Positions 7,376 to 53,800 of a stretch of 64,000 nt of DNA are shown one piece after another (the stretch's first letter is position 1; each line of letters starts with the position of its first letter). This DNA is from Cordylochernes scorpioides. Its lineage: Eukaryota; Arthropoda; Arachnida; Pseudoscorpiones; Chernetidae. A program made the position numbers and the translations under genes. Below the pieces are notes generated by a model. That model did no database searches. It saw only the letters and a program-made list of their open reading frames with translations, and had not been told where the DNA came from. The stretch lies in NCBI GenBank assembly GCA_030710605.1, contig CP092863.1, positions 125,042,049 through 125,106,048 on the forward strand, read 5' to 3'.

Positions 7376-7413
7376 ATAACTCAAACATGAAATGACCATG
7401 ATTCACCACTCAC

Positions 7414-7517
7414 AGTTTGGGGAGCAGACAGTCCTCCTGCAGCGGGGGTTTGTAGTGGGGCAGGAATCTCCCGCGGTAGTTGTTCCGCTGGATGAGGGTG
7501 TGGGTGGTGTCTCCATA
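7414..7517 (-). CDS. Hpd: HPPD exon 7, left copy
   Basis: 104 nt, phase 0 in and phase 2 out, acceptor CCCCCACAG and donor GTGAGT. Encodes [11 protein letters not shown]...LPHYKPP...LLPKL. One residue differs from the right copy (Asn here, Asp at 52,816-52,919). Confidence 0.92.
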
Positions 7518-47800: not shown

Positions 47801-50800
47801 AATTTTTTATATTTTCTATTCTGTGAAACTTGCCTCATTGCCTCTGTTATTCTATAATTTTTAAGTTGTCCTTGATATAAATAAATTTTCGTGTCATCCT
47901 GAAGTTTGTCTTCCCTAATTTTCTATGTGACAATATAATTGTTTTATTTTACGACAAAATTGTGTCTTTAATAGTGCGACATATCGCTAAGGATCGCCTT
48001 AAAACAGGGAAACTCCATGCTCAGGGTGGTGGTCGCTCATGGGAGAGGTAGTGTTCTTTATTTATCTATAAAAATATATCTCACCTCTCCCGTCAAAATA
48101 GACGCCAAAACTAGATGCCTTCTATTGACCGTCTCTGCATACTAGTAGACTCGAGTCGGTGACAAAGCCACAACACCAGCTTTGGCAAACTGAGAAACGT
48201 CCACCTGGAGATAATGGTTTCAGACTATTCACACTCGCCAGTCCAGGGCGGACATTGATTTGATGAGAGATCCAAAATTAAATCTTCAGAATTTGACACA
48301 AAGAGGTGTTTATTCAATTATATAAGTTTTTCTTGTCGCCCAAAACTCGTCCTTCATTCAGGTTGACTTTAACTACACTGTGCCAGCGGTGATCTCATTT
48401 ATAATGGAATTGGAGACTGACAGTGTACTGTGTGTTCCAGCCTGACCGCGGTCGTTTCCTTAAGTTCGACCACCTCACCTTCTGGGTTGGCAACGCCATG
48501 CAGGTCAGTGGTGCTCCTTCTGGATTGTTGTGTGACCTCGTACCTTCCTACAACAGAGGATGTACTAAGCATATGATCCTGTGGACACGTCGCGAACCTA
48601 TCTGTGAAATATGGAATTCGGTAGGAAATTTACCAAGGTGGAACCTTGTCATGCCGGGAAGAACTAAGAGCTTTCCAAGTTGCTATCATCGGTATTGATT
48701 TTATTGAAAGACCTTTGTTAGTGTTTACGGGCCTTAAAATAATCTACCATCCATATAGGTGACTACTGAACTTGTAGAGAAGTACAAAACTGAACACAAG
48801 AGTCAAACTGAGGTCTTCCTGTAGTCCCCACAGTAGATAGTGTTATCATTACTGCGGCTATATAAAGGTCGATGGTAAATAAATCATTTCAATACTACAT
48901 AACACTGGCGAAGGAAGGTTTTTGCAAGCCGAGAGACGTTTCAGTCTGAACATAGTTTGTTGCCAGTGATGGAAATAACATAAAATTAATATAAAGCAAT
49001 AATGCGCTATCTAATATATGACATGAAGGTTTATTTTATTCATAAAGCAAACTTCTACTGTTATTACTGCGATAATACTATTTCTAAGATTCTACCCTTC
49101 AATGTAGCAGAATCGTCCAATACAGTATTATAGCTCTTAAAGCGGTCTGGTGGATCAAATTGGCGAAACCGCTGGGAAGATTCTCCACTGATAAACCGCC
49201 TCACACAAGTCTTCCCAATATATTTTAATTGCAGTAAGGTCATTTGAAAGTTAGTTTTTTTATTTGAAAAGGAAATTCCGTGCTTAATAATTTTATTTCC
49301 CATTCCTTGAACAGAACCACACACATATACAGAGAGAGATAGATGAACATACAGAGACACGTGGACTGTTGTTACAGGCGGCGGCGTTCTACAGTGTGAG
49401 GATGGGGTTCGAGGTGTTGGGTTACCGCGGTCTGGAGACAGGATCCCGCGAGGTGGTGTCCTACGTGCTGCGACAGAATGACATCTACGTCGTGCTCCAG
49501 TCCGCTCTCAACCCGGGCAACAAAGGTGGCTACCTCCCATCTATCTTCCTCTAAGAGCCTATTTCACTCCCAATCTATTTCCGTCAGTTTCACACAACCC
49601 TTCCCTCTCTTATAACCATCAAAAATGATTAATTTAAAGCATCATTAAACAACGGGAGGTCGGTGGAGGAGTAGTATAAACCATTTATTTATTTATTTCA
49701 ATTCAAAACGCTATGTCCCCCTAGGGACACTTGCGCTAAATGTACATACAAATATAACAAAGAAAATATTCAACATGGAAAGATACAAAGAAAGCGACTT
49801 AGAAAGATTCATAAATATTATTTACATATAGAGATATTCTTTGAATTTTATTTACAGTTACATCATTAAATTTAAAAATATATACATATATACACACATA
49901 TACACGCATACACCTATATATTGTTTACAACCATATAATATGTCCAATATTTCCTTGAGATCGTTACATCAAAGACCATTTTTCTTAATGAAATCCAAAA
50001 TATATTTACAAAGGAAATTAAATTTTATATATGTGTCCTTACTTGAAAGCCATTTCGACAGCCATGACCTGGGATCAAAACCCGCATTGGACACCTTTTT
50101 TCAGAAAAAAAACATCTTCAACGGCTTCCGATACTTGCAAAAGACCAACCCCATCAGTAAGTAGGCCCTAGAACACTTGTAAGTGCGAAAATATCGACCT
50201 GCTCTCTACATGTACAGACATATACTTGCAGTAAAAGCAAGTCGCTATCTACTACCCACAATTATTATATGGCTTGTGTATAAAAAATATAAAACATTTA
50301 TTCATCGTCTAAACATCTTATTTAAACTTATTATTTGTTTTTAAAAAACTCTTCAATTTACACCAGTTTTTTTATTAGTTTAGTAAAATGAAATTCTTTC
50401 TCTTAAGCACACACACACTTCATATCTTCTTTAAATATTTCAATTATATATATTTTTTTAAGTACACAAAAGTGAAATTTATACTGAGATTAGGTGTGTA
50501 TAAATTAAGATAAAAAGCATTTCCTGATTGTGCAACTGAAATTTGCTGATGGCCTGCCCCATCTCTCAGAATAAATACCATTTAATCGTTTATTTTTAAT
50601 TATTACAGAATATTGGCCAAATACCCTTTTTCGATTCATCAAGAAAAGCCAACCACATACCCGTTTCAGGCTGTTGACCCGTATGGTGTAGGTACAACGA
50701 TTTTTTTTTTAAATCTAGTCCTGTAGACTACTTGAAAAATCACGGAATGGGTATTAAATACTTACATACCTTAAATACTTAAGACCATAATATAATCATG

Positions 50801-53800
50801 GACAAAACTTAAGGAAGTTGTACCTTTCAGCATGTATATCGGGATTGAGACAATAACTCTGAAATATATTACAGTGACCTTTATTGAAAGCACACGAGAT
50901 AATAAAGTATAAACAAAATTATCTCTGTCTCCTTCTTAAAAAAAAAAAAAAAAAACAGACGACCGGAGGCATCAAAGATTTTCCACTTCCCTAAATTTTG
51001 TCCATGAGTGTAAGTGCGTGAGAATGTCAGAGCTGAGAGCTTCTACCGGAGGTTGTACCGACCGTGGTGGTGTCGTGCAGAGATGGGAGCCCACCTCGTC
51101 AAACACGGGGACGGCGTGAAGGACATCGCCTTCTCTGTGGAAGACATCGAAGCCATCGTCGAGGTTGGTTTCACATGTGTGTTTCACTGAGTGGATGTGT
51201 GTGTTCTTCATTGGATATAACACAAACCTCTACCCTGGTGGTGTTTACGTCATCTACAGGGAAATGCCATTCGTCCCACCCCGCATAGACATCCCAACTT
51301 GTGATATTTCATTTTATTTTACATTTAGATAGTGATAGATAGTAGAAGTGTGTATTATGTATAAAAGAAACATTCGTGCTTTTAAATCCTTCCATATTAT
51401 ATGTATAGATGGCGTGTTATTGCTTTGTGTTAATTTATGCCTAACTGGCCTTGTCTTTATTGTTTGCTGAAGAGCATTGCTCGATGCAAATATTTGAATG
51501 TAATTCTACTGTCCTATAAGCTTATGTCCATAGTTTTCTTGAAAACCATTTCTGAGATTCCATCCTTCAGTGCTGCGTATATAAGCAGAATCGTCCAATA
51601 CAGTATTAGAGCTCTGAGAAGCGGTCTGGTGGATTAAATTGGCGAAACCGCTGGGAGGGTTCACCACTGATGAGCCAAGCCCTCCCAATATATTTTTTCA
51701 TCGCAGTAAGGGCAGTAGAAGTGTGTATTATGTATAAAAGAAACATTCGTGCTTTTAAATCCTTCCATATTATATGTATAGACGGCGTGTTATTGCTTTG
51801 TGTTGACATTTAGAAACGTTGACTACCAAATGAGAAGTTTTGGAGACATTTATTTGTTGAGCAATCTTTACTTTTTCTATACTGCGATAGGGGATTCCTT
51901 TCCCCCCAACATATTGTAGCAGAGATATAATAGAAAACGTTTTAAAAATAAAACTAAAAGTGAATGTTTTGATTGCTATAGACTGTTAAAATCTGGACAG
52001 GTCAAGAGTCCATAACGACGTGTGCTAGCTGGTTATTTCAAAAGTTGACCATTCTAGGCAGAGCGACACTATGTGTTAGATGATCGTTGTTTTATACGAT
52101 GGTGTGTGATACACGTGTGTCGTACAGACGGCCCGACAGCGTGGAGCCAAGATCGTCAAGGACATCTGGGAGGAGAAGGATGAGTTTGGATCCGTGAAGT
52201 TCGCCGTCGTCCAGACTGTGAGTCTCCTCTATTCGACACAATTGGATGAACACGATGTGTAAACTACCTCTGTATATCTCCCACCACTACAATCCTTACA
52301 CGTAATGACACACACCTCAAGTTTTGGTTCTCTATAGAGAGATATCAACATTCCAAATTTATCCCTATATATCTACCATTATCTTCAGAATAACGAAATA
52401 CCATTTACTCCTGAAGGAGGTCTCTTTTTGAGGTTGGCTTTTATAAGACCAAAATACCTAAACTAAAAGCTAAACGATGCCTTTCTTTATATTATTCGAA
52501 AGCTTCCGCCTCTCAGAACCTTCCCTCCAATCCTAGCATCATGAAATACAATGTTTATCGAACCCAATATTATCAGGAGATAAGTAAATAGAAAGTAGAG
52601 GCGGGGTGTATCGTAAAAATGGCTCGTAAACTGAGCCCAAGGCAACTGTCAGTAACTGCCTGACCTCTTAATGTGTGAGCGCGTCCTTCAACAGAACGTG
52701 CTACCAGATATAGAATACGACGTGGCAAGTCGTGTAATTCACAAGGCTTCAATGGCCATCTTGCTATAAACCCAACCCCACCAGTGGTTGGTTAAAGATA
52801 TGTGTGTCCCCACAGTATGGAGACACTACCCACACCCTCATCCAGCGGGACAACTACCGCGGGAGATTCCTGCCCCACTACAAACCCCCGCTGCAGGAGG
52901 ACTGTCTGCTCCCCAAACTGTGAGTGGTGAATCATGGTCATTTCATGTTTGAGTGATATATAAAACTGCTCAGCATACTCTGCACATACACTCATGGACA
53001 AAGTATGTATAGCGGGATTCAGACAATAGCTCTGAAAGATATTACAGTGACCTTTATTGAAAACATGCGAGATAACCAAGTGTAAACAAAATTGACTGTC
53101 TCCTTCAAAAAACATAAGAGTGTAAAATAAAATTTGAACTATTGTATTCTATAGTCCACGTTTCCCCCTCTATTTAGCGAATTTTCTCAAAAACTCGCGT
53201 CTTTTCACAATAAAATGATGCTAATTGTTGTTTTTTTAAGTGTTTTTTCATAAATGGTATCATATTTTTAGAAACCAGCTGTGTGATAGTTAGTTAAAGA
53301 TGTGGGTGTGTGCAGGCCACCGTGTCTCCTACAGGTGATCGACCACTGCGTCGGTAACATGCCGGACAACGCCATGGCCCCTACGTCGGAGTGGTGAGTA
53401 CTGCCTTCTCTATCGTGGAGAGATAAACTGTCAGATGGTGTTCAATGTGTATAAACTTACATATCTCCTTAAATGTAGTAGAAATCCTATATATGAATTA
53501 AATAAGGCAACAAGTTTCTAGAGATGAGTTTCTTTTCATTTTTATTCCAATCTCAAGCTTTCGGGCATTTACCTCCCTTCTACAGGACAACAAAAATGAA
53601 CAATGTTGAACTCAACCTATGGTAATGATTTGCCTCATCAATAAAACATAATAAGTCAGCACCAGCCGCAGTAGCCCCACCGCCACTAATACCTACCCCG
53701 ATGACCCATGAGCTCCTGACCGCTCCTTCACCCCCCTATAGCTCTCACTCCTGAGGGCGATGTGGACATAGAAAAGTTACTCATCCGATTGAAAGATCGA

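Follow-up and report, generated by a model that had tools for sequence, protein, structure and literature searches.

General features of the palindrome

The stretch of DNA analysed here (the window) comprises 64,000 nucleotides of the pseudoscorpion Cordylochernes scorpioides (sequence CP092863.1, positions 125,042,049 to 125,106,048) and contains a large imperfect palindrome, both arms of which carry exons of an HPPD gene, whose product acts in the breakdown of tyrosine. The window represents one scaffold made up of two contigs, the left and the right contig (coordinates are marked L and R, respectively, where needed), which are separated by the sole run of N (41,554–41,653). This run is exactly 100 N long; 100 N is commonly written where the size of a gap is not known. 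The coordinates of the features are given in Table 1.

To compare the arms, the right contig was reverse-complemented and aligned to the left one (E 1e-3), and the best collinear chain, which consists of seven blocks, was taken. Six of the seven lie inside L 7,373–29,641 and R 52,960–41,654, with 88.3–98.7% identity over 177 to 3,785 columns, and the unaligned stretches between them are mostly insertions present only on the left. These insertions are the main source of the unequal arm lengths (22.3 kb on the left and 11.3 kb on the right). The innermost block (L 27,467–29,641 and R 43,834–41,654) reaches 98.7% identity across 2,182 columns, which rules out a chance match. The seventh block (L 6,608–7,377 and R 58,837–58,059; 91.9% identity) lies outside the arms and is treated separately below. 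A preliminary description of this DNA had reported a large imperfect inverted repeat whose right arm starts at the placeholder, within a multi-copy miniature inverted-repeat transposable element (MITE); the chain reproduces this arrangement, with coordinates correct within a few bases and 41,654 as the first base after the gap.

The homology between the arms starts at position 41,654, immediately past the N run and within the MITE-like repeat. The segment 41,654–41,733 is identical to 29,562–29,641 at 80 of 80 bases, so that the right contig keeps 80 bp of this approximately 211-bp repeat, many partial copies of which are present elsewhere in the window. As the homology sets in directly behind the gap, the inner end of the palindrome is a contig end, with no visible duplication junction. 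A 118-bp minisatellite (21,066–21,634 on the left and 44,468–45,498 on the right, with 4.9 and 8.9 copies, respectively) has sequence in common with the MITE-like repeat.

The HPPD gene

For the frames that contain exons 4 and 12, the best E values against solved HPPD chains (3isq, 5ec3, and 1sqi), which we take to be human and rat 4-hydroxyphenylpyruvate dioxygenase, are 1e-15 and 2.4e-18, respectively. The remaining exons were located by tblastn with a human sequence, and their boundaries were set by splice sites. On the right contig, exons 2–12 are present in order (41,785–57,280); all 11 are preceded by AG and followed by GT, and when joined they read through as a 1,068-base open frame (356 codons). 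On the left contig, exons 2–7 were identified at 29,510–7,414, with matching intact splice sites in six of six. Exons 8–12 are visible on the right only (53,316–57,280) and none was found on the left contig within the window; the left remainder of the gene (exons 8 onward) may either lie past window position 1 or have been deleted. Neither pattern searches nor tblastn with the human sequence revealed the last HPPD exon in the window. The right contig is similar to the solved HPPD chains in exons 4 and 12 but differs from them in that its first and last coding exons are not seen in the window.

A search of the minus strand of L 29,510–41,554 for the motif ATGGTRAG yielded a single site at 34,093 (ATG followed by GTGAGT), upstream of which TATAAA (34,135–34,130) and TCAGT (34,111–34,107) are present. 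From these signals, the site is a plausible candidate for HPPD exon 1 with a short 5' untranslated region, located on the left contig only; the search covered this one motif, and other donor types would escape it. The motif was not found on the right in 41,654–48,438, and only 131 bp separate the gap from exon 2. A match to TSYTDKGPK at 29,510 and 41,785 first resembled a start exon present in both arms, but it is preceded by the acceptor tcccag and by no ATG, and was thus assigned to exon 2. The window therefore contains no single complete copy of the gene: the left copy consists of the proposed exon 1 and exons 2–7, and the right copy of exons 2–12. The earlier claim that exon 1 is confined to the left agrees with the candidate at 34,093 and with a right contig starting 131 bp before exon 2. 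The accompanying remark that a real right copy would be without a start exon describes half of the asymmetry, since the left copy shows no exons 8–12 in the window.

The region around the proposed exon 1 (32,001–36,000) is very AT-rich, with GC contents of 0.23 and 0.27 in two 2-kb steps. In intron 8 of the right copy, a 98-codon stop-to-stop frame that is protein-like in look was noted (53,720–54,013); it gave no Pfam match, and its structure matches were weak (best E 0.046, to a designed protein). A short inverted repeat (tttctactgcc...gcagtagaaa) was spotted by eye in the intron after exon 12 (57,530–57,640).

Insertions and divergence between the arms

Two Ty3/Gypsy-like elements, A and B, are present in the left arm only. 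Both possess two long terminal repeats (LTRs) with TG...CA ends, a short target site duplication (TSD), and gag and pol domains, by which they were assigned to this group. At the position of element A, the right arm has no insertion near 48,682, where the site reads ATAG with two substitutions close by; for element B, an exact empty site is present on the right near 43,832. Similarly, the 14-bp target sequence of a left-only retroposon resembling a short interspersed nuclear element (SINE) occurs once on the right (49,049–49,062). The arms further differ by a left-only segment to which no class was given (Table 1) and by unrelated sequence at an equivalent position (L 9,121–9,610 and R 51,314–51,847). 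A partial second copy of the element B family was found at 1–1,622 (96.9% identity to 25,842–27,470 over 1,629 columns; LTR match at 1,282–1,620), running off the window start.

Before divergence and coding changes were counted, L 9,121–9,700 and the minisatellite (L 21,066–21,640) were removed, leaving 9,524 columns; the windows within L 9,030–9,825, with 17–59% mismatch, are forced alignments of unrelated sequence. The arms differ in 414 of the 9,524 columns, and the differences are distributed in two levels with a single change point at L 20,533 and R 46,031. Inside this point, 28 of 3,336 columns differ (0.84%), and outside it 386 of 6,188, i.e. 6.2%, a value that may be slightly high because some retained windows are at 10–12% and are possibly misaligned repeat pieces. 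In the two largest BLAST blocks of the outer part, 119 of 2,300 and 174 of 3,785 columns are mismatched, about 5%. The log-likelihood gain of the change point is 96.6; when blocks of 100 columns were shuffled 100 times, the gain did not exceed 25.3.

These differences bear on two minor explanations. A fold-back chimera formed during library preparation or amplification would account for the inverted head-to-head layout, but it copies one molecule and is expected to yield near-identical arms; the 6.2% outer divergence and the one-sided kilobase insertions led us to reject it as extremely improbable. It is also improbable, although less so, that the right contig is a diverged paralogous locus from elsewhere that was misplaced here. 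The outer 6.2% and the synonymous divergence given below would fit a young paralog, but a paralog of a single age gives no such step as that to 0.84% over the inner 3,336 columns unless conversion has occurred. The mosaic divergence fits recombining haplotypes, and gene conversion in a true palindrome could give it too. True palindromes whose arms undergo gene conversion with each other, for instance on sex chromosomes, usually have almost identical arms. The present structure resembles these in having inverted arms around a spacer, but differs from them in the 6.2% divergence of its outer arms and in the lack of a recognised junction.

In the shared HPPD exons 2–7, 12 changes were found in 515 aligned coding bases, 10 of them synonymous and two non-synonymous (I/V and N/D). 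The frame is kept and no splice site is broken in either arm. The synonymous divergence is about 0.085 (uncorrected, 10 of 118 sites). If the right arm had been neutral since the split and half of the divergence had arisen there, about 11.7 non-synonymous changes would be expected, as opposed to the two observed (P for two or fewer, 0.0007), which disfavours an old start-less duplicate. Two working copies are not disfavoured by this constraint, and neither is the duplication, very recently, of an allele that had already diverged.

The coding pattern touches on a further reading, in which the duplication is real: one chromosome would bear two head-to-head HPPD copies, partial or complete, with 29,642–41,553 and the gap sequence as the spacer, and the arms would since have diverged and received different transposons. 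We consider this unlikely. The arms do lie inverted beside each other on a single scaffold, constraint would likewise be seen in a right copy that works and has its exon 1 in the gap, and gene conversion could account for the inner 0.84%, but a right copy that has been functionless since the split is disfavoured by the probability given above. Somewhat less likely still is a real arrangement in which the left copy lacks exons 8–12 and the right start exon lies in unseen sequence, with HPPD dosage or function varying between individuals.

The outer end of the arms

On the minus strand of the left contig, the sequence switches at 7,375 to TA immediately followed by CAGGGTGATCCAAAAGTCC, and the same terminus, likewise after TA, is found from R 58,061. 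From these termini, the block common to both contigs (the seventh block of the chain) extends to L 6,608 and R 58,837. The terminus (TA, then CAGGG) resembles mariner-type ends. With up to three errors allowed, a search of the window showed only the two termini described and no second terminus of the block; a looser 10-base pattern gave very many chance matches and was disregarded. The outer block probably represents a transposon-like element present twice, in intron 7 of the left copy and, in the right contig, downstream of exon 12, and the outer end of the arms is accordingly probably a transposon-like terminus rather than a duplication junction. A palindrome reaching 6,608 and 58,837 was also considered and is not preferred to two transposon copies, since the extra block begins at the common terminus. 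Near the left block, a frame at 4,998–5,573 may belong to a transposase; its helix-turn-helix match, to DUF4817, is weak and does not reach the cut-off (E 0.018).

The unlike flanks of the outer block are not decisive, because a 5.1-kb deletion on the left explains them equally well. Under such a deletion, the homology would run to 6,608 and 58,837, and its end there would be unexplained. Within a reading of the two contigs as haplotypes, the left haplotype would then truly lack exons 8–12 and represent a loss-of-function allele, produced either by a deletion ending at the transposon-like terminus or by recombination between the two same-orientation copies. We regard this variant as doubtful, albeit less so than a real duplication. 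The sequence at L 7,373–7,377 adjoins sequence matching R 58,059 onward, so that R 52,961–58,058 is skipped, with five shared bases; both copies point the same way with respect to the gene; and the search detected just two termini, with no second end. Against the variant, the breakpoint is located exactly at the terminus, as two separate insertions would give, the left 1–6,607 does not match the right 58,838–64,000, and the left contig may run on past the window.

As regards a real inverted duplication, no junction was recognised at the inner or the outer ends, the former being a contig end and the latter probably a transposon-like terminus; the gap or the ends at 6,608 and 58,837 could still hold one.

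Origin of the palindrome

The palindrome is most probably an assembly artefact, in which an uncollapsed second haplotype was set inverted beside the first; judging from the sequence, we assign this reading a probability of about 0.85, which is independent of the deletion variant described above. It is favoured by the homology starting where a contig ends, by polymorphic insertions that have empty-site counterparts, by the mosaic divergence, and by the constrained coding differences. The two contigs would be two haplotypes of one chromosomal stretch with a single HPPD gene, in a heterozygous and transposon-rich animal. The assembler would have left them uncollapsed in view of approximately 5–6% difference over much of the stretch and several kilobase-scale insertions, and the scaffolder would then have set the second contig beside its allele, in inverted orientation, across the 100-N placeholder. 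Exons 8 onward of the left allele would sit past window position 1, behind transposons. The preliminary description had likewise proposed a second haplotype joined at the gap and a single-copy HPPD; the join is favoured by the data, but the exon asymmetry had been only half described, and the single-copy status would still be a prediction.

False heterotype duplications, i.e. uncollapsed haplotypes that are kept in one assembly, are treated in the main text of PMC9516828. The present case is similar to them in that diverged copies are adjacent on a scaffold, with a gap between them and parts of one gene in both; here, 100 N separate the copies and the homology runs from 41,654. As far as that main text goes, a gap between copies typifies false rather than true duplications, which argues against a real inverted duplication. 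In the Aedes aegypti assembly, according to the parts of PMC6421076 used here, most intervals recurred on contigs left unmerged until the haplotypes were merged. The resulting AaegL5, which was Hi-C scaffolded, is comparable in that contigs of both haplotypes were ordered on the same scaffolds, but differs in that undercollapsed heterozygosity was detected and merged there (PMC6421076). Taken as far as these portions of the two papers reach, an inverted second-haplotype contig beside its allele would be an ordinary type of error (PMC9516828, PMC6421076).

The arms display differences of the allelic type by our own yardstick (empty-site insertions, mosaic divergence, and coding constraint), which are compatible with alleles but not exclusive to them. 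Several points weigh against a haplotype origin. A divergence of 5–6% is high for alleles, though plausible in polymorphic invertebrates, and the low-divergence inner part could also be yielded by gene conversion between the arms of a real palindrome. Alleles should match again past the arms, but no block of the best collinear chain (E 1e-3) was found in the left 1–6,607 or the right 58,838–64,000; both of these flanks carry retroelement sequence, making this result more uninformative than contrary. The inverted orientation present here is a difference from the false duplications cited above, inverted copies being unmentioned in the main text of PMC9516828, from which 'orientation' and 'inver' are absent.

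Table 1. Positions of the features identified in the window
Feature	Position	Strand	Remarks
Left arm	7,376–29,641	-	Reverse complement of right arm; HPPD exons 2–7 and left-only insertions
Right arm	41,654–52,957	+	Reverse complement of left arm; HPPD exons 2–7
Gap placeholder between the two contigs	41,554–41,653		100 N
MITE-like repeat, left	29,562–29,772		About 211 bp; ends approximate
MITE-like repeat copy, right, cut by gap	41,654–41,733		80 bp, identical to 29,562–29,641
Divergence step	20,533		R 46,031; 6.2% outside, 0.84% inside
HPPD exon 1, proposed	34,091–34,109	-	ATG followed by GTGAGT; left contig only; candidate from sequence signals
HPPD exon 2, left	29,484–29,510	-	
HPPD exon 3, left	18,098–18,160	-	
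HPPD exon 4, left	11,412–11,559	-	
HPPD exon 5, left	9,775–9,857	-	
HPPD exon 6, left	8,760–8,849	-	
HPPD exon 7, left	7,414–7,517	-	
HPPD exon 2, right	41,785–41,811	+	131 bp past gap
HPPD exon 3, right	48,441–48,503	+	
HPPD exon 4, right	49,378–49,525	+	
HPPD exon 5, right	51,081–51,163	+	
HPPD exon 6, right	52,128–52,217	+	
HPPD exon 7, right	52,816–52,919	+	
HPPD exon 8, right only	53,316–53,393	+	
HPPD exon 9, right only	55,433–55,595	+	
HPPD exon 10, right only	55,991–56,062	+	
HPPD exon 11, right only	56,115–56,231	+	
HPPD exon 12, right only	57,158–57,280	+	Donor site follows
Ty3/Gypsy-like LTR element A, left only	12,562–17,925	-	LTRs 217 bp, 0 differences; TSD ATAT
Ty3/Gypsy-like LTR element B, left only	22,273–27,466	+	LTRs 344 bp, 0 differences; TSD ATAT
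SINE-like retroposon, left only	11,888–12,176		289 bp; perfect 14-bp TSD
Left-only segment, no class given	7,550–8,158		609 bp
Transposon-like block, outer end of left-arm homology	6,608–7,375	-	Begins TA, then CAGGGTGATCC
Transposon-like block, second copy	58,061–58,837	+	91.9%; downstream of exon 12, right contig

Retroelement sequences flanking the arms

To the left of the arms, a retroelement piece with an endonuclease match is present at 2,917–3,375. To their right, 60,517–63,575 contains RNase H and reverse transcriptase matches as well as an endonuclease match that is weak and does not reach the cut-off (E 0.011). Both pieces appear to be of the non-LTR type.

Implications

The locus offers a worked case of the signs by which uncollapsed haplotypes can be told from a real palindrome using sequence only, and the paired arms provide empty sites for young Gypsy and SINE-like insertions. 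If both arms were counted, HPPD would falsely appear duplicated and would be represented by two truncated gene models, both of them false. HPPD inhibitors in the blood meal kill blood-feeding arthropods (PMC12315382), so that the copy number and intactness of HPPD can matter in such animals.

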